DNA from: Streptomyces rubrogriseus
Lineage (GTDB): Bacteria; Actinomycetota; Actinomycetes; Streptomycetales; Streptomycetaceae
Assembly: GCF_027947575.1 (NCBI RefSeq)
Contig: NZ_CP116256.1
Span: 8,246,001-8,310,000, forward strand
DNA: 64,000 bases
Reading direction: 5' to 3'
A program made the position numbers and the translations under genes. The notes beneath the pieces were generated by a model. It did no database searches, had not been told where the DNA came from, and saw only the letters and a program-made list of their open reading frames with translations. Positions 12,911-20,628 of this stretch are shown here, piece after piece; positions within the stretch are counted from its first letter, which is position 1; every line of letters starts with the position of its first letter.

Positions 12911-14956
12911 TCAGGACACGATCCGTATCCGGCGCTGCTCGCTCACCTGGTCCACCTCGGACACCCTTACGGTCGCCTTCATCGTCCAGACGCCGGGCAG
13001 GGGCAGCGTGAGGGTGTTCGCGCTCCAGTAGCCGCCCCGGTCGACCAGGTCCGCCTCGATGGGGCCGACGTCCTTGTCGGGGAGGGTGAAGGAGAGGCGC
13101 AGCTCGGGTACGGCGGCCAGGCTGCCGTCGGGGCCGAAGACGACGACCTGGACGGAGTTGTCGCCGGTGCGGCCGGGGTCCAGGGTGATCTGGACCGTGC
13201 CGCGGGCGGCCGTGCCGATCTCGAACGGGATCGTGGTGACGGACGCGGGCAGTACACCGCCCGCCGGTACGGCCGTCCGCGCCGCCTCCTCCGCCGCACG
13301 GCCGGGGAGGGTGGCGGTCAGCACGGTCGTCACCGCCAGGACGACCGCGGCCACGGCTGCCTCGGCGAGGACGGAGCGGCGCAGGCCGCGGCGGAGGGCG
13401 GCCTGGGCGGCGGTGTCTGCGGCGGCCGTGGTGTCTGCGGCGTCCGGGGCCGTGGTGGCCTTGGCCGTGGTGGCCGTGGCCGTGGTGGCCGTCGCCGTGG
13501 TGGCCGTCGCCGTGGTGGGTGGTTCCGGCTCCGGCTGTGACTCCGGCTCCGGAGGGCCGCCCGCCGGTTGGGGGATCCGCTCGCGAAGAGTCGTCCGGCC
13601 GGGCTCGCGCACGGCGAGCGCCGCCGTCGCCAGGGCCGTCGTCCATCTCCGGGACACCGCCGCCCCGGCCAGCAGTACGGCCACCAGGAGCACCTTGACC
13701 AGCAGCAGCCGGCCGTACGTCGTGCCGGTGAGCGCCTGCCAGGAGCCGAGGCCGCGCCAGGACTGGTAGACGCCGGTGGTCACCAGGACGGTGACGGCGG
13801 CGAAGGCGACACGGGAGAAGCGGGCCACGGTGGCGGCGTCGGCGGTCGCGCGCAGGGTGAGGATCAGGGCGGTGAGGCCGCCCAGCCAGACCGCGGTGGC
13901 GAGCAGGTGCAGGGTGGAGGACGTGATCGCGAGGGGCACCTGGACACCGGCGGAGGCGTGTTCCGCGGCGGCCCACGTCAGGGCGAGGCCGACGGCCAGG
14001 GCGGTGCCCACCGCGCCGGCGAGCGGGGTGCGCTCCCCCAGCCGGTCCGCGCGGGACGCCCGGACGAGGAAGAGCGCGACCGGGGCCAGCAGCGCCAGCC
14101 TGATCAGCAGCAGCACGCCGGGGCGCGCGGTGAGGGTGTCGGCGAGCGCCTCGGCGTCCAGGGCCGACGACGGCCCCGTACCCGCCTCGTACGGGGCGCG
14201 CAGCACCAGCAGGGCGACGGTGGCCGCCAGCAGGGCCCACCAGCCCGCCACCAGCGGGCGGCGCAACGGGGCCGGGTCCGGCGGGCGGCACAGGGCGGCG
14301 AAGGCGGCGGTGCCGATGAGCAGGGCGGCGGCGAGGTAGGCGAGGTAGCGGGCGAGTTTGTGGAGGGTCGCGGTCAGCGGGTTTTCGGTGGGGCCCGTGT
14401 CGACGGGGGCGGACGTCTGCGACGGCTTGCCCACGGAGAAGGTGAACGCGCCCGACACCGGGTGGCTGTCGGCGGACACCACCCGCCAGGCCACGGTGTA
14501 CGTGCCCTCCCCCAGGCCGTCCGGCAGCGCGACCCCGGCCGTGTCGGACCGGCCGTCCGCGTGCCCGGCCGCCCCGGTGCGGACGCGGTGGCCGCCCGGG
14601 TCCAGGACGCGGAAGGAGTCGTCGCGCAGGCCGACGGACTCGCTGAAGGTCAGGGTGACGTGGCCGGGGGCCCGCTGGAGGACCGCTCCGTCGGCGGGGG
14701 CGGTGGAGCCGAGGGCGGCGTGGGCGGCCGCCGGCCCGGCACCACCGAGGAGGAGCAGGACCAGCATGGCGCCCAGCAGCACCAGCCGCCGGAGTCCCCG
14801 GCCGCCCCGGAGGTCGAGCCAACGGTCCCGGCCCGGCCGGGAGAAACCCCGGGAAGGGTTCCCGTCACCTCGGTCGTTGTGGTCCCACCGCTGTGTCCGG
14901 TCGCGTCCTCCCCCTCTCCCCCGGCGTCCAGCGTGCGCATCGTCACCACACCTCAC
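12911..14956 (-). CDS. CopC-CopD fusion, copper resistance/uptake membrane protein
   Basis: An N-terminal signal (hydrophobic stretch ending GPAAAHA) releases a CopC domain whose mature N-terminal His and the later DSHPVSGAFTF segment match the Cu(II)-binding site of CopC. A CopD domain with about eight hydrophobic segments follows (residues 205-440), then an Ala-Thr low-complexity linker, then another membrane segment and a YtkA/CopC-like beta domain at the C-terminus. This YcnJ-like arrangement moves copper across the membrane. The GTG at 14956 is the longest start; a start nearer the signal peptide is possible, as the first 50 residues are Arg/Gly-rich. Confidence 0.85.
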   Translation of the reverse strand: MRCGDDAHAGRRGRGGGRDRTQRWDHNDRGDGNPSRGFSRPGRDRWLDLRGGRGLRRLVLLGAMLVLLLLGGAGPAAAHAALGSTAPADGAVLQRAPGHVTLTFSESVGLRDDSFRVLDPGGHRVRTGAAGHADGRSDTAGVALPDGLGEGTYTVAWRVVSADSHPVSGAFTFSVGKPSQTSAPVDTGPTENPLTATLHKLARYLAYLAAALLIGTAAFAALCRPPDPAPLRRPLVAGWWALLAATVALLVLRAPYEAGTGPSSALDAEALADTLTARPGVLLLIRLALLAPVALFLVRASRADRLGERTPLAGAVGTALAVGLALTWAAAEHASAGVQVPLAITSSTLHLLATAVWLGGLTALILTLRATADAATVARFSRVAFAAVTVLVTTGVYQSWRGLGSWQALTGTTYGRLLLVKVLLVAVLLAGAAVSRRWTTALATAALAVREPGRTTLRERIPQPAGGPPEPESQPEPEPPTTATATTATATTATATTAKATTAPDAADTTAAADTAAQAALRRGLRRSVLAEAAVAAVVLAVTTVLTATLPGRAAEEAARTAVPAGGVLPASVTTIPFEIGTAARGTVQITLDPGRTGDNSVQVVVFGPDGSLAAVPELRLSFTLPDKDVGPIEADLVDRGGYWSANTLTLPLPGVWTMKATVRVSEVDQVSEQRRIRIVS
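13451..13519. repeat. 15-bp tandem repeat within the CopC-CopD gene
   Basis: Four copies of CGTGGTGGCCGTCGC (with T/G changes in the first two) and a partial fifth. They encode an Ala-Thr pentapeptide array in the linker after the CopD domain. Copy number is likely to vary between strains. Confidence 0.85.
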
Positions 14957-15043: not shown

Positions 15044-15838
15044 TCACCACGACGGGCGGGCCGTCACCCCGCCGTCCACCACGAGGTCGTGGCCCGTCAC
15101 CCAGGACGCCAGCCGCGAGGCCAGGAACACGCACGCGTCCCCCACGTCCTCCGGGCGCCCGAGCCGTCCCGTCGGTGCCGCCCGCCGCCACCGCCGTACG
15201 CCCTCCGGCCAGGCCTCGGCGAGTCCCTCGCGGTCGACGAGGCCGGGGGAGACGGAGTTCACCCGCACGCCCCACGGGCCGTACTCCAGCGCCGCCGACC
15301 GGGCGTGCATCACCACCGCCGCCTTCGAGGCGCTGTAGTGCGCGTGCGCGGGAGCGGGGGCGCCCGCCTCGATGGAGGCGATGTGGGTGACCGTGCCGCC
15401 GCCGTCCTGGGCGCGCATGACGGCGGCCGCGGCCTGCGTGCACGCGAAGACGCCGGTCAGGTTGGTGTCCACCACCTCCCGCCACTCGGTCGCCGTCATG
15501 CCGGGCAGTTCCCGCAGCGGCTGCACGCCCGCGTTGTTGACCAGCGCGTCGAGCCGGCCGCCGCCCCACTCGGCGGCCTCCCCGACCAGGCGCCGGCAGG
15601 CGTCCTCCTCGGTGAGGTCGGCGCGCAGGACCGTGGCGCGCCCGCCCCGGCCGCGGATGCGTTCCGCCACCTCCCGCGCCGACTCCACCGCCGTACGGCA
15701 GTGCACCGCCACCGCAGCGCCCTCCTCGGCGAAGCGCAGTGCGATCCCCCGGCCGATGCCGCCGCCCGCGCCGGTGACCAGGGCGATCCGTCCCTCAAGG
15801 AGGCGGGTGGAGGCGGGGGAAGGGGTCGAAGAGGTCAT
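15044..15838 (-). CDS. Short-chain dehydrogenase/reductase
   Basis: A classical SDR of 264 residues: cofactor motif VTGAGGGIGRGIA, NNAG near residue 110, catalytic Ser-Tyr-Lys in ASIE and HYSASKAAV, and the C-terminal GHDLVVDGG. The start ATG 15838 overlaps the stop of the cupin gene as ATGA, so it is the last gene of a tightly coupled four-gene operon with the acylase, acyltransferase and cupin. It therefore should be under the iron box at 19221. The substrate is unknown. Confidence 0.9.
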   Translation of the reverse strand: MTSSTPSPASTRLLEGRIALVTGAGGGIGRGIALRFAEEGAAVAVHCRTAVESAREVAERIRGRGGRATVLRADLTEEDACRRLVGEAAEWGGGRLDALVNNAGVQPLRELPGMTATEWREVVDTNLTGVFACTQAAAAVMRAQDGGGTVTHIASIEAGAPAPAHAHYSASKAAVVMHARSAALEYGPWGVRVNSVSPGLVDREGLAEAWPEGVRRWRRAAPTGRLGRPEDVGDACVFLASRLASWVTGHDLVVDGGVTARPSW

Positions 15839-16332
15839 GGGCGGCACAGTGACACGATCCGGGCCGCCTCGGCCGGGTAGCGCGCCGTGAGTTCGGCGGC
15901 GTCGCCGTGCTCGTAGTCCCCGTAGGTGAAGCCGGGCGCCATCGTGCAGCCGAAGAGCGACCACGCGCCGCCCGCGCCCACCCGGCCGCCCATCCACGTA
16001 CCGGCGGGCACCGTGTACTGCACGTGCTGCCCGCCCAGGACGTCCGGTCCCAGCACGGCCGTACGCGCGCTGCCGTCCGGGGCGAGGAGGAGCAGTTCGA
16101 GGGGATCGCCGAGGTAGAAGTGCCAGACCTCGTCGGCGGGCAGGCGGTGCAGGGCGGAGAAGTCGCCCGGCCGGGCGGTGAGCAGGGCGACGATGGCGGA
16201 ACCCGCGGGGCGTCCGTCCGGGCGCCCGGGGCCCGCCCAGGTGCGCCGGAACAGTCCGCCCTCGCGCGGAATGGGCTCCAGTGCGTAGTGCGCGATCAGG
16301 TCTTCGGCGGTCGGTGTCGGCGCGGGAGTCAC
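15835..16332 (-). CDS. Cupin_5 (DUF985) family protein
   Basis: A 165-residue single-domain cupin with the family blocks LIAHYALEPIPREGGLFRRT, ALHRLPADEVWHFYLGDPLE and GCTMAPGFTYGDYE. DUF985 cupins resemble RmlC-like folds and their substrates are poorly known. The start is GTG 16332, overlapping the stop of the acyltransferase gene (GTGA); the end overlaps the SDR start. Membership of an iron-regulated operon is the only functional clue. Confidence 0.85.
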   Translation of the reverse strand: MTPAPTPTAEDLIAHYALEPIPREGGLFRRTWAGPGRPDGRPAGSAIVALLTARPGDFSALHRLPADEVWHFYLGDPLELLLLAPDGSARTAVLGPDVLGGQHVQYTVPAGTWMGGRVGAGGAWSLFGCTMAPGFTYGDYEHGDAAELTARYPAEAARIVSLCRP

Positions 16333-16949
16333 GCGCCGAACGCTACCTCCCGCCGCAGGAAGGCCAGTTGCGCCTTCTTCTCCGGCAGGTACACGTCCGG
16401 CAGGTCCACCTCGGGCAGGACCACCGCGGGACCGGCGGTGAAACCCTGCTTGAGGAAACGGGCGATCGCCTTCTCGTTGGCCACGTCCGGGTCGACCACG
16501 ATCCGCGTCCGGTCCAGGCCCAGCAGCACGTACGCCATGAGGGCGCCCGACAGCGCGGCGGTCCAGCCGGGGCGCGCGCCCTCGGTTCCGGCGGGGGCGA
16601 GGAGCAGGTGGACGCCGATGTCGCCCGGCTCGGCGGCGTAGCACTCGCTCACCCGGTCGGCAGCGGGATCGTAGGTCTGGAGCAGGGCAGCCGGCTCGCC
16701 GTCCTTCACGACCAGGTAGGCGTGGTGGGTGTCGAGGGTGTCCATGTGCGCGTACACGGCGGCGACCTGGTCGCGCGTCAGGTCGTTCATGCCCCAGAAG
16801 GCGGCCCGTTCCTCGCCCACCCAGCCGTGGACCACCGCGGCGTCCGCGGCGGGGTCCAGGGGCAGGACGCGGACGGTGCCGAAGCCGTCGAGGTGCTGCT
16901 CGTGGACCGGGGTGCGGGCGGCGTACGGGGTCGCGGGTGCGTCAGTCAT
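16329..16949 (-). CDS. GNAT acyltransferase of the siderophore (AlcB/IucB-like) type
   Basis: The 206-residue protein resembles the Acetyltransf_8 family, which acylates hydroxylamine groups during hydroxamate siderophore assembly. Supporting blocks are VVHGWVGEERAAFWGMND near residue 40, DIGVHLLLAP near 115, and RIVVDPDVANEKAIARFLKQ with GF following, the classic C-terminal CoA-binding segment. It overlaps the upstream acylase gene by 8 bp and the downstream cupin by 4 bp. Placement behind an iron box supports a siderophore role, but no NIS synthetase gene is in the window. Confidence 0.85.
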   Translation of the reverse strand: MTDAPATPYAARTPVHEQHLDGFGTVRVLPLDPAADAAVVHGWVGEERAAFWGMNDLTRDQVAAVYAHMDTLDTHHAYLVVKDGEPAALLQTYDPAADRVSECYAAEPGDIGVHLLLAPAGTEGARPGWTAALSGALMAYVLLGLDRTRIVVDPDVANEKAIARFLKQGFTAGPAVVLPEVDLPDVYLPEKKAQLAFLRREVAFGA

Positions 16950-19200
16950 CGGATTCCTTCGTGAGCCGGTCGAAGTCGGTGACCACCGGGGCGAGTTCGC
17001 CGCCGAGCCACAGGGGCTGCTGGTCGTGGTGGTGGGGTGAGCCGGGGAGGCCCGAGGCGCCGTGCGGCACCACCCAGCGGCTGTTCGCGCGGTCGGCCAG
17101 GTCCCAGACGTACCGCGCGGCCGGGCCGCGTGCGGCGCGGTCGGTGAGGCCGGGCACCGGGGAGGTGCACAGGACGCAGTCGTGGTCGCCGGAGAGGCCG
17201 GGTTCGTCCCCGGGGGCGGTGGCGGCGTCCGGCAGCGCCCGCCAGGGGGCCAGGCGGTGGGTGTCGCCCCAGGTGCCGGACGGCGGCGACGCGGCGACCT
17301 CCTCCAGCGCGGCGCGGACGGTCGCGGCGCGGTCGATGCCGTACAGGTCCTCCGCGCGCAGCAGGTGCTCCAGGGCGTGGCCGAGGCGCGGCACGAGCGC
17401 GAGCCACGGCAGGAGCACCTCGGGGTACGCGGGCGGCACGGACGCGGGGGCGAGGACCGGGTGCGCCGCCAGTCTTCGTACGACCGCCGCGCGCACGGCC
17501 GCGTACGCCGCGGCGTCGGTGCTGTCGGCGTCCATGCGCCGGTCCCAGGCGAGGATGCGGTCGCGCAGGGCGGCGGCCTCGGGGGTGAGGGGAGTGAGGG
17601 GGGTCGGTGTGGCCTCGGGGGGCGCGAGGGGCGCGGCGGTCGGGGTGGCTTCGGGTGTCGGGGTGGCTTTGGGTGTCGGTGCGGCTTCGGGCGGCGGTGC
17701 GGCTTCGGAAGCCAGGGCGGCTTCGGGCGGCGGTGCGGCTTCGGAAGCCAGGGCGGGATCCGGAGGCACGGCCGCGAGGTGGGACAGGAGGGGGGCGGCC
17801 GAGCCCAGGTGGGTGTCCGTGTGGATCGCGGGCATGTCCGCCGCCGACCAGTGCTCCTTGTCCGCGAGCAGGGCCTTGATGCGGTCGGCGCGGTGCGGCG
17901 GGGCGAACTCGACGCCCAGGGGCGTGGCCGGGCCGCGCTGGTTGGCCATCACCGCGACGCCGTCGGTGAGGCCGGCGCGGGGCGGGGTGTGCCAGCCGGT
18001 CCACTCGTGGCCGGGCTCCCAGGCGGGGACCGGTCGCAGGCCGTTCGCGGCGGGGCGCACGGGGACGCGGCCCGCGACCCGGTGCAGCAGGCCGCCCTCC
18101 GTGTCGGCGGCCTGCACCACGTTGACCGGCTCGGCCCACGCGTCCAGGGCGCGGTCCACGTCGGCGACCCGGCGGGCCCGCAGCAGCGGCAGCAGGGCGC
18201 CGAAGCCGAGGTCGGCGGTGACGCGGGGCGGGTAGCGCAGGCTGAGGGCGGCCGGGGTGCCGTCGTCGAGGCCCTCGGGGCCGCCCGCGATCACCGGGCC
18301 GCGGTCGGTCTCGATGATCTCGACCTCCACCGTGTCCTCCCCGGCGACGTGGATCGTCTCCGTGTGGCGGGCGGCGCGGTGCCAGGTGCCGTCGGGGCCG
18401 AGCGCCTCGACTCCGGCGCCGGTGCGGCGCAGGCGTTCGCGGTAGAGGTCCTGGTAGTCGGCCATCGCGTTGGTGATGGCCCAGGCGACCGTGCCGGTGT
18501 GGCCGAAGTGCGCGACCCCGGGGACGCCGGGAACGGCGAGGCCGACGACGTCGAACTCCGGGCAGGACAGGTGGATCTGCTGGTAGACGCCGGGGTCCTC
18601 GATGAAGCGGTGCGGGTCGCCCGCGATCAGTGCGTGTCCGGTCGTGGTCCGCTCGCCGCTCACCAGCCAGCCGTTGCTGCCCGCGGTGCCGGGGCCGTCG
18701 GCGGCGAACAGGGCGACGGCCTCCGGGCCGAGGTGGGTGGAGATGTGCTCGCGCCAGAGCTTGGCGGGGAAGCCCGCGAAGAGGATGTGCGTGGCGAGCC
18801 AGACGCTGAGCGGGGTCCAGGGGTCCCAGCGGCCCGGAGCGAGGCCGGTGCGGGCGAACTCCGGGGCCGGGTTCGGGTGCCCGGTCCCGGTGAGCCCGTC
18901 GTTCACGCCGTCCGCGTACGCCCGCACCCAGGCCGCCGTCTCCGGGTCCTTCCGTTCCAGGGCGGCGAAGCAGCGGCGGGCGGTGTCCGCGAGGCGGGCG
19001 CGGCGGGCGAGCCGGTCCCAGGACAGGGCCTCGGGGCCGAGGAAGGACGCGGAGGTGCCCTGGGCGCGGTGCCGCTCGACCTCCAGTTGCCAGGCGCGGT
19101 CGCGGGCGGTGACCCGGCCCTGGGCACGGGCGAGTTCGTGCGGGGTGTCCGCGCGCAGGTGCGGGATCCCCCAGGCGTCGCGGTAGGTCTCGGCGCTCAC
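16942..19200 (-). CDS. Penicillin acylase-family Ntn hydrolase
   Basis: The 752-residue protein starts at GTG 19200. It shows the family start YRDAWGIPHLRADTPHELA, with the predicted autocatalytic nucleophile Ser175 in GTAGSNGWLVSGERT, followed by HALIAGDPHR. Relatives cleave acyl groups from amides, as PvdQ does in pyoverdine maturation. Unlike PvdQ there is no signal peptide, so the enzyme appears cytoplasmic. Residues about 470-535 are an Ala-Pro-Glu-Thr-rich repeat insert (DNA 17600-17765). It is the first gene of the iron-box operon, 20 bp from the box, suggesting a role in siderophore tailoring or hydrolysis. Confidence 0.88.
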   Translation of the reverse strand: MSAETYRDAWGIPHLRADTPHELARAQGRVTARDRAWQLEVERHRAQGTSASFLGPEALSWDRLARRARLADTARRCFAALERKDPETAAWVRAYADGVNDGLTGTGHPNPAPEFARTGLAPGRWDPWTPLSVWLATHILFAGFPAKLWREHISTHLGPEAVALFAADGPGTAGSNGWLVSGERTTTGHALIAGDPHRFIEDPGVYQQIHLSCPEFDVVGLAVPGVPGVAHFGHTGTVAWAITNAMADYQDLYRERLRRTGAGVEALGPDGTWHRAARHTETIHVAGEDTVEVEIIETDRGPVIAGGPEGLDDGTPAALSLRYPPRVTADLGFGALLPLLRARRVADVDRALDAWAEPVNVVQAADTEGGLLHRVAGRVPVRPAANGLRPVPAWEPGHEWTGWHTPPRAGLTDGVAVMANQRGPATPLGVEFAPPHRADRIKALLADKEHWSAADMPAIHTDTHLGSAAPLLSHLAAVPPDPALASEAAPPPEAALASEAAPPPEAAPTPKATPTPEATPTAAPLAPPEATPTPLTPLTPEAAALRDRILAWDRRMDADSTDAAAYAAVRAAVVRRLAAHPVLAPASVPPAYPEVLLPWLALVPRLGHALEHLLRAEDLYGIDRAATVRAALEEVAASPPSGTWGDTHRLAPWRALPDAATAPGDEPGLSGDHDCVLCTSPVPGLTDRAARGPAARYVWDLADRANSRWVVPHGASGLPGSPHHHDQQPLWLGGELAPVVTDFDRLTKESDD

Positions 19201-19220
19201 CCCTGTGCCTCTACTTTCCT

Positions 19221-19239
19221 TTAGGTTAGGCTCACCTAA
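19221..19239. promoter_or_regulatory. Iron box (DmdR/IdeR operator)
   Basis: TTAGGTTAGGCTCACCTAA matches the 19-bp Streptomyces DmdR1 iron-box consensus as I know it. It lies 20 bp from the acylase start on the left and 44 bp from the siderophore-interacting protein start on the right, so one bound repressor could silence both directions when iron is plentiful. Confidence 0.93.
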
Positions 19240-19283
19240 GTTTGTGCGTCGTGGCCGAATAGTACGTGAAAGGTGAAGGAAAC

Positions 19284-20009
19284 ATGGGGCAGGGGCGGGG
19301 CTGGGAGGGCGCGGTCCTCAAGCTGATGCGCGCGAAGGACTTCGAGTTCACCGTGACGGGCGTGGAGGACGTGACCCCGCACTACCGGCGGCTGCGGCTG
19401 AGCGACGGCGGCATGCTTGCGGTGACCGGGGTCCACCCCACCATGTGGGTGCGGCTGTGGTTCGACAACGCGGGCAGGCCGCACCAGCGGGGGTACACGT
19501 TGGTCGACCCGGATCCGGCGGCCGGGACCTTCGCCATGGAGTTCGCCCTGCACGAGGGGTGCGCCAGCGACTGGGCGCGGGCGGCGAAGCCGGGGGACAC
19601 CGTCGAGGCGACGGTCCAGGGCACCGGGTTCGAGGTGCCGCAGCCCGCTCCCTCCCGTGTCTTCGCGGTCGCGGACCCGGCGTCCCTGCCCGCGCTCAAC
19701 TCCCTGCTCGACGCGTTCGGGTCGGTGCCGGCGACCGTCTGGTTCGAGGGGGACCCGGACGACGGCCTGCCGTTTCGTACCGACTCCGGGCGGCACGAGG
19801 TGCGGGCGGTCGAGCGGCGGGACGCGGGGGCGCGGCTGGTGGCGCGGGTGAAGGAGGAGCTGCCGGAGCTGCTGTCGGCCTCGTCGGAGCCGTACGTCTG
19901 GATCGCCTGCGACACGGCGACGACGCGGGCGCTCTCGTCGTACGTCCGCAAGGAGCTGGGGGTGCCGAAGCAGCGGGTGAACGCGCTGGGGTACTGGCGC
20001 GCGACCTGA
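19284..20009 (+). CDS. Siderophore-interacting protein (FAD-dependent ferric-siderophore reductase)
   Basis: SIP proteins reduce imported ferric siderophores in the cytoplasm with NAD(P)H and FAD. I start at ATG 19284, behind AAAGGTGAAGGA, rather than at the GTG at 19266, giving 241 residues. The FAD-binding domain contains HYRRLRLSDGG and RGYTLVDPDPAAG with the RxYT motif. The C-terminal SIP domain includes VFAVADPASLPALNSLLDAF, WIACDTATTRALSSYVRKEL and a final RVNALGYWR. It is divergent from the acylase operon across a consensus iron box. Confidence 0.94.
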   Translation: MGQGRGWEGAVLKLMRAKDFEFTVTGVEDVTPHYRRLRLSDGGMLAVTGVHPTMWVRLWFDNAGRPHQRGYTLVDPDPAAGTFAMEFALHEGCASDWARAAKPGDTVEATVQGTGFEVPQPAPSRVFAVADPASLPALNSLLDAFGSVPATVWFEGDPDDGLPFRTDSGRHEVRAVERRDAGARLVARVKEELPELLSASSEPYVWIACDTATTRALSSYVRKELGVPKQRVNALGYWRAT

Positions 20010-20034: not shown

Positions 20035-20628
20035 ATGGACGTCACACTTCACCTCGCCCAGGACCCCGAGGCCGACGAACTCCTCGGGCGCAGCCCGCTC
20101 GCCGCGCTGGTCGGCATGCTGCTGGACCAGCAAGTGCCCATGGAGTGGGCGTTCAAGGGTCCCTCGACCATCGCCCGGCGCATGGGGGCGGAGGACCTCG
20201 ACGCGCACGACATCGCCGCGTACGACCCCGAGTCGTTCGCCGCGCTGCTGTCCGACAAGCCGGCCGTCCATCGCTACCCCGGTTCGATGGCGGGGCGGGT
20301 GCAGCAGTTGTGCCGGTACCTCGTCGAGACGTACGACGGTGACGCCGAGGCCGTCTGGCGGGGGGTGAGCACCGGGAAGGAGCTGCTGAAACGGCTCCAG
20401 GAACTGCCGGGGTTCGGCAAGCAGAAGGCCCAGATCTTCCTCGCGCTGCTCGGCAAGCAGCTCGGCGTCCGTCCCGAGGGGTGGCGCGAGGCGGCGGGGG
20501 CGTACGGGGAGGCGGACTCCTTCCGGTCGGTCGCGGACATCAGGGGGCCGGAGTCCCTGACCAAGGTGCGCGCGCACAAGCAGGAGATGAAGGCGGCGGC
20601 CAAGGCGGCGAAGGCCTCCGGCAAGTAG
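20035..20628 (+). CDS. HhH-GPD superfamily DNA glycosylase-like protein
   Basis: The 197-residue protein has the helix-hairpin-helix segment LPGFGKQKAQIFLALLGKQL around residues 123-142, preceded by LLDQQVPMEWAFKGP, a typical GPD-domain feature. Only one Cys is present, so the C-terminal 4Fe-4S cluster of EndoIII/MutY is absent. Family members excise damaged bases. It follows the SIP gene by 25 bp and could be cotranscribed, although no iron link is expected. Lys/Ala-rich tail. Confidence 0.85.
   Translation: MDVTLHLAQDPEADELLGRSPLAALVGMLLDQQVPMEWAFKGPSTIARRMGAEDLDAHDIAAYDPESFAALLSDKPAVHRYPGSMAGRVQQLCRYLVETYDGDAEAVWRGVSTGKELLKRLQELPGFGKQKAQIFLALLGKQLGVRPEGWREAAGAYGEADSFRSVADIRGPESLTKVRAHKQEMKAAAKAAKASGK

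Follow-up and report, generated by a model that had tools for sequence, protein, structure and literature searches.

We analyzed a window of 64,000 nucleotides from Streptomyces rubrogriseus (contig NZ_CP116256.1, positions 8,246,001 to 8,310,000), in which an iron box separates a SIP-family reductase gene from four genes, read in the opposite direction, that encode an N-terminal nucleophile (Ntn) amidase, an acyltransferase, a cupin and a short-chain dehydrogenase/reductase (SDR). This is the desJGH locus, the orthologue of SCO4047-SCO4052 of Streptomyces coelicolor, which was published in 2025 (PMC12161575) and whose operon is already cited in a 2026 paper (PMC13011467). High-level production of desferrioxamine (DFO) B in S. 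coelicolor requires this locus: inactivation of desG lowered DFO B about 1000-fold and that of desH about 16-fold, and both losses were reversed by complementation (PMC12161575). A preliminary description of the window, which proposed an uncharacterised pathway that modifies, hydrolyses or recycles a hydroxamate siderophore, was right about the kind of siderophore and was overtaken on the point of novelty; the role given in PMC12161575 is a biosynthetic one, the choice of an acetyl cap, and not the hydrolysis or recycling of finished siderophore.

Identity and layout of the locus

The published account (PMC12161575, PLoS Biol 2025) describes SCO4045-SCO4052, where SCO4047 encodes an HhH-GPD protein, SCO4048 is desJ (SIP), SCO4049 desG (amidase) and SCO4050 desH (acyltransferase), while SCO4051 is annotated as a "putative sugar epimerase" and SCO4052 as a dehydrogenase. 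The window carries HhH-GPD, SIP, amidase, acyltransferase, cupin and SDR genes in that same order. Stop mutants were made in S. coelicolor at DesG W61, DesH W43 and Q91, and DesJ W55 and Q68 (PMC12161575), and all five residues are found at identical positions in the window proteins. The published truncations also imply lengths of 206 amino acids (aa) for DesH and 241 aa for DesJ, with which the window lengths agree when DesJ is read from the ATG at 19284. The SIP frame is open from an upstream GTG at 19266, but the ATG is most likely the start because it yields the 241 aa deduced from the stop mutants. The closest solved sequence to DesJ is the SIP domain of the mycobactin importer IrtA.

The two loci are therefore alike in gene order with both flanks, in protein families, in DesH and DesJ lengths and in the mutated residues, and they also share iron-box control and a desABCD cluster that lies elsewhere. 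They differ in DesG, which has 752 aa here and about 782 aa by the truncation number in PMC12161575; we infer from that number, rather than from the S. coelicolor sequence itself, that the gap probably reflects a repeat-coded linker. In other actinomycetes desG lies inside the desferrioxamine cluster, with the same supposed role (PMC12161575), whereas here desGH is unlinked to desABCD. Within the literature matching the numbers SCO4047-SCO4052, SCO4051 and SCO4052 were named only by PMC12161575.

The five genes and their overlaps stand as first described, and Pfam assigned their families (SDR, Cupin_5, Acetyltransf_8, Penicil_amidase and SIP; Table 1). Read from the sequence, desG and desH share 8 bp (ATGACTGA), desH and the cupin gene share 4 bp (GTGA), and the cupin and SDR genes share 4 bp (ATGA). 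The published rule for recognizing desGH, a PF01804 and a PF13523 gene within 1 kb of each other (PMC12161575), describes this overlapping pair.

The iron box (TTAGGTTAGGCTCACCTAA) does lie in the promoter region shared by desG and the divergent SIP gene, although the word consensus, used for it in the preliminary description, was slightly too strong, as it is one letter off the 19-bp palindrome used here. The pattern had no match in 100 shuffles of the window. Across the whole 8.41-Mb genome it gave 18 strand-matches at up to three mismatches, representing 11 distinct places, and the reversed control pattern gave none. All 19 letters are the same in the box that lies 64 bp before the desA start. 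The locus is thus a predicted member of the DmdR1 regulon, as is its S. coelicolor counterpart, for which the iron regulon was both predicted and co-expressed (PMC12161575).

Table 1. Features of the desJGH locus and its flanks, in window positions.
Feature	Position	Strand	Evidence or remark
SDR	15044-15838	-	PF13561; SCO4052 position; probable passenger
Cupin_5 (DUF985) protein	15835-16332	-	PF06172; SCO4051 position; probable passenger
desH, DesC-like acyltransferase (Acetyltransf_8), 206 aa	16329-16949	-	PF13523, E 6.4e-43; W43 and Q91 as SCO4050
desG, Ntn amidase (Penicil_amidase), proposed de-succinylase, 752 aa	16942-19200	-	PF01804, E 3.4e-159; W61 as SCO4049
Tandem repeat, 18-bp unit, variable DesG linker	17599-17744	-	Tandem Repeats Finder
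Arg198 (beta-24) codon in desG, proposed carboxylate-binding residue	18607-18609	-	Arg in 80/80 loci
Ser175 codon in desG, nucleophile, first beta-chain residue	18676-18678	-	Alignment
Iron box in the desG-desJ intergenic region, predicted site for DmdR	19221-19239	.	1 mismatch to consensus
desJ, SIP-family ferric-siderophore reductase, 241 aa	19284-20009	+	PF04954, PF08021; W55 and Q68 as SCO4048
HhH-GPD protein, conserved flank, SCO4047 position	20035-20628	+	TIGR03252; near desG in 76/80 loci
CopC-CopD protein, other flank	12911-14956	-	PF04234, PF05425; match within 6.5 kb in 68/80 loci

Conservation and co-occurrence with desferrioxamine genes

A scan of species genomes for desG matched at least 595 stretches, of which 578 were confirmed, and we kept the best 80, a set that leans toward close relatives. 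The full five-gene set was present at 51 of these loci, and the others carried desJGH and the cupin gene (8, and 1 more close to the end of a contig), desJGH (7), desGH (7), or desGH with the cupin and SDR genes (5), with a last one cut off after desG. An iron box lay within 260 bp upstream of desG at 74 of the 80 loci when up to two mismatches were allowed, and at 78 with up to three. In 9 of the 79 loci having both genes, desG and desH formed a single open reading frame, with several junctions that differ and others that are alike, and Pfam found both domains in the two fusions that were scanned. Intergenic gap lengths, which depend on extrapolated starts, served only for spotting such fusions. 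Fusions of desG and desH were known before from S. atratus and Micrococcus (PMC12161575).

The genome also contains desABCD, at 1.10 Mb on the contig that carries desGH at 8.26 Mb. This cluster encodes DesD (IucA_IucC and FhuF), the acyltransferase DesC, DesB (Lys_Orn_oxgnase), DesA (Pyridoxal_deC), a SIP protein and a periplasmic binding protein, and it has iron boxes at 1105136 and 1107230. As the preliminary description held, the window has no nonribosomal-peptide-synthetase-independent siderophore (NIS) synthetase, the genome's four PF04183 matches all lying elsewhere.

We then counted DesH in 150 genomes of the genus Streptomyces, taking as DesD orthologues matches of at least 60% identity and as DesH orthologues best matches at E 1.1e-43 or lower; the next matches, at 1.0e-32 and weaker, were DesC-like and lay near DesD where both were listed. 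DesD orthologues were present in 119 of the 150 genomes; of the other 31, 25 had only more distant NIS synthetases and 6 had no match at E 1e-60. DesH orthologues were present in 85. The two occurred together in 84 genomes, DesH occurred by itself in 1 and DesD in 35, and 30 genomes had neither.

The acyl pocket of DesG

The best database match to DesG was a protein of 755 aa with 93% identity, named S. violaceoruber. The cut site falls at Gly174-Ser175, where Ser175 aligns with Ser1 of 4hsr_B and 35sz_C, and Ser175, Tyr206 and His231 each showed no variation across the 24 sequences aligned. Among solved sequences the nearest was 35sz, a "Penicillin acylase family protein," and the nearest with a named activity were the N176 glutaryl-7-aminocephalosporanic acid (glutaryl-7-ACA) acylase (4hsr_B, E 1.8e-69) and a D-succinylase (7eby, E 1e-38). 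More distant were the penicillin G acylases, at a best E of 7e-20, and PvdQ, at a best E of 5e-8; PvdQ membership was rejected, with a score of 42.6 bits to NF051460 against a cut-off of 950.

Position beta-24 of the acyl pocket is occupied in DesG by Arg198. Table 1 of PMC11241749 compares ten structures at this place (beta-F24 in penicillin acylase), and lists Arg only in 4HSR (N176) and 7EA4 (D-succinylase); the remaining structures have Phe, Leu, Trp or Val, PvdQ and the E. coli penicillin G acylase being among those with Phe. In the two structures of class I cephalosporin acylases the Arg lies instead at beta-57, a neighboring position of the pocket (PMC11241749), and a class I enzyme in which this Arg was exchanged for Ala or Gly had no activity left on glutaryl-7-ACA (PMC8197700). 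In simulations of N176, R24beta and Y32beta were among seven residues that stabilized the productive pose of cephalosporin C (PMC6712217). Taking a pocket Arg at either beta-24 or beta-57 as our own criterion across the ten structures, DesG has it at beta-24, as do all 80 desG loci. The genome's two other PF01804 proteins have Leu and Thr there.

DesG thus shares with the N176 acylase (4HSR) and D-succinylase (7EA4, 7EBY) a Ser nucleophile and a DPHR motif with beta-Arg24, although the substrates differ or, for DesG, are predicted ones. PvdQ and the penicillin G acylases belong to the same PF01804 superfamily and are exported enzymes. They differ from DesG in the Phe at beta-24 (PvdQ and the E. 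coli enzyme), and DesG is without a signal-like segment: by a crude count, a hydrophobic N-terminal segment is present on both other PF01804 proteins of the genome and not on DesG. An Arg that holds across all 80 loci and recurs in the N176 acylase and the D-succinylase, in place of the Phe of PvdQ and the E. coli penicillin G acylase, together with the lack of such a segment, is more in keeping with DesG as a de-succinylase of the cytoplasm than with an aryl-acylase or with an enzyme exported like PvdQ. A term search of the accessible text of PMC12161575 found neither "active site" nor "pocket" nor "succinylase."

The DesG linker coded by the 18-bp repeat is rich in Pro, Ala and Glu, and it is long in the window protein and in one relative (P0001) and nearly absent in most aligned relatives. 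One desG (L027) has long insertions in two places, and another match (L060:10001-12160) contains a stop codon, reflecting either a pseudogene or a sequencing error.

The cupin and SDR genes

Cupin orthologues, defined by E 1e-49 or lower, were present in 55 of the 150 genomes, with 16 further genomes having weaker cupin matches only. They lay within 4 kb of desH in 34 genomes, in a genome with desH elsewhere in 1 (G058), and in genomes without desH in 20. We fetched and inspected 12 of these 20 loci and found an SDR orthologue near the cupin gene in 11. At loci L110-L112 the order is HhH-GPD, cupin, SDR and CopD, the same site without desJ, desG and desH. Locus L116 has HhH-GPD, cupin and SDR genes along with short scraps of desG and desH (L116:7055-7588), and we looked for a desJ match and an iron box at the scrap site and found neither. 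None of the 12 loci had an iron box in the 600 bp preceding the cupin gene; the best candidates there had 9-11 mismatches, as did random pieces of those loci. In addition, the cupin and SDR genes are both missing beside 14 of the 80 desG loci, and one further locus ends at a contig end.

The cupin and SDR genes are thus not confined to desGH and its iron box, as the parts of a dedicated five-gene operon would be. Since other members of the genus carry them with neither desH nor an iron box, we conclude that this pair is separable and probably outside the pathway, coming under iron control here only through its downstream position. Given that the cupin gene is beside desH in 34 of 55 genomes, and that the frames overlap here, the pair may have a helper role where linked.

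Proposed function and alternatives

We consider it likely that the locus consists of desJGH with a passenger cupin-SDR pair, and that DesG de-succinylates and DesH acetylates to give DFO B. When iron is scarce, DmdR1 would leave the box at 19221 and both directions would be transcribed. The desABCD genes would make N-hydroxy-N-succinylcadaverine (HSC), which the NIS synthetase DesD would trimerize to desferrioxamine E. Succinate would be taken off HSC by DesG, an Ntn amidase that is probably cytoplasmic, DesH would re-acylate the freed N-hydroxycadaverine with acetyl-CoA to give HAC, and DesD would put HAC in as the capped end of linear DFO B. DesJ would be a second ferric-siderophore reductase beside DesF. 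This route through monomers was proposed in PMC12161575, and the proposal that DesG de-succinylates and DesH acetylates is supported by the sequence comparisons presented here.

The same mutant phenotypes and the pocket arginine would also agree with DesG trimming the succinyl end of a linear dimer or trimer, after which DesH would acetylate the exposed N-hydroxy end and turn would-be DFO E into DFO B once assembly has started. A fusion of desG and desH would suit such a bulky intermediate as well, but PMC12161575 proposes the monomer route, and we regard end-trimming as unlikely. An older hypothesis for desG, suggested by earlier work according to PMC6401478, is that it adds aryl (phenylacetyl) caps to desferrioxamines or takes them off. 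DesG is a PF01804 member, and S. venezuelae, which produces an aryl-ferrioxamine, carries a candidate desG preceded by an iron box (PMC6401478). However, the beta-24 residue is Arg in DesG and Phe in E. coli penicillin G acylase, arylated DFO is not known from S. coelicolor in the account of PMC12161575, and the desG mutant described there lost DFO B. An aryl-capping role is the less likely one, and we set it aside on the beta-24 evidence as very improbable.

In the preliminary description all five genes were taken together as a single pathway, under iron control, for the modification or recycling of a hydroxamate siderophore. The overlapping frames held up, the cupin gene is next to desH in 34 of the 55 genomes that have it, and desG, desH, cupin and SDR genes occur together at 56 of the 80 desG loci. 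But the cupin gene also occurs apart from desH, the cupin-SDR pair is absent from some desG loci, and DesG is without a hydrophobic N-terminal segment. We therefore rejected a single pathway, which seems quite improbable, on the cupin loci that are without desH and without an iron box. An extension of the favored de-succinylation and acetylation scheme, possible though doubtful, is that DesG and DesH form a cut-and-replace pair that overwrites the acyl group installed by DesC, on the chain end as well as the monomer, with direct hand-over between them, which is suggested by desG and desH being one frame at 9 of 79 loci. The three genes would then be an iron-box cassette gained and lost at one conserved site, between HhH-GPD and cupin-SDR-copCD, switching the production of capped siderophore between strains.

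Several points weigh against the favored scheme. The place of DesJ in the pathway is unclear, because 12 of the 80 desG loci have no desJ beside them and DFO B production rose in the published desJ mutant (PMC12161575). N176 has His70beta where DesG has Asn244, and the carboxylate-binding role proposed for Arg24 is one read from sequence. The AlphaFold2 model of DesG, built from 24 sequences (23 Streptomyces-type loci including the window, and 1 database protein), had a mean predicted local distance difference test score of 41.2 and was not used, and we found no enzyme assay of DesG or DesH in the accessible literature. The association of DesH with DesD (Fisher p 2e-12) comes from a statistic that ignores common descent, and genome G083, in which no DesD orthologue was found, contains a DesH-like gene of 48% identity (C1:5750275-5750859). 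Finally, 6 of the 85 DesH matches (G007, G041, G063, G098, G103 and G142) contain one internal stop codon, through decay or sequencing error.

DFO B is a drug for iron overload, and desGH decides a strain's output of DFO B versus desferrioxamine E. The observation of the locus was correct and the locus is already known, so that our additions to its mechanism and boundaries are small: the DesG pocket residue, nine further fusions, a wider co-occurrence, and two genes placed outside the pathway.

Other siderophore-type genes

The genome contains another NIS synthetase gene (C1:6458279-6460271), which adjoins its own Acetyltransf_8 gene and apparently belongs to a second siderophore-type cluster. 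Two weaker IucA/IucC matches lie close together, facing in opposite directions, at C1:5948684-5950928.

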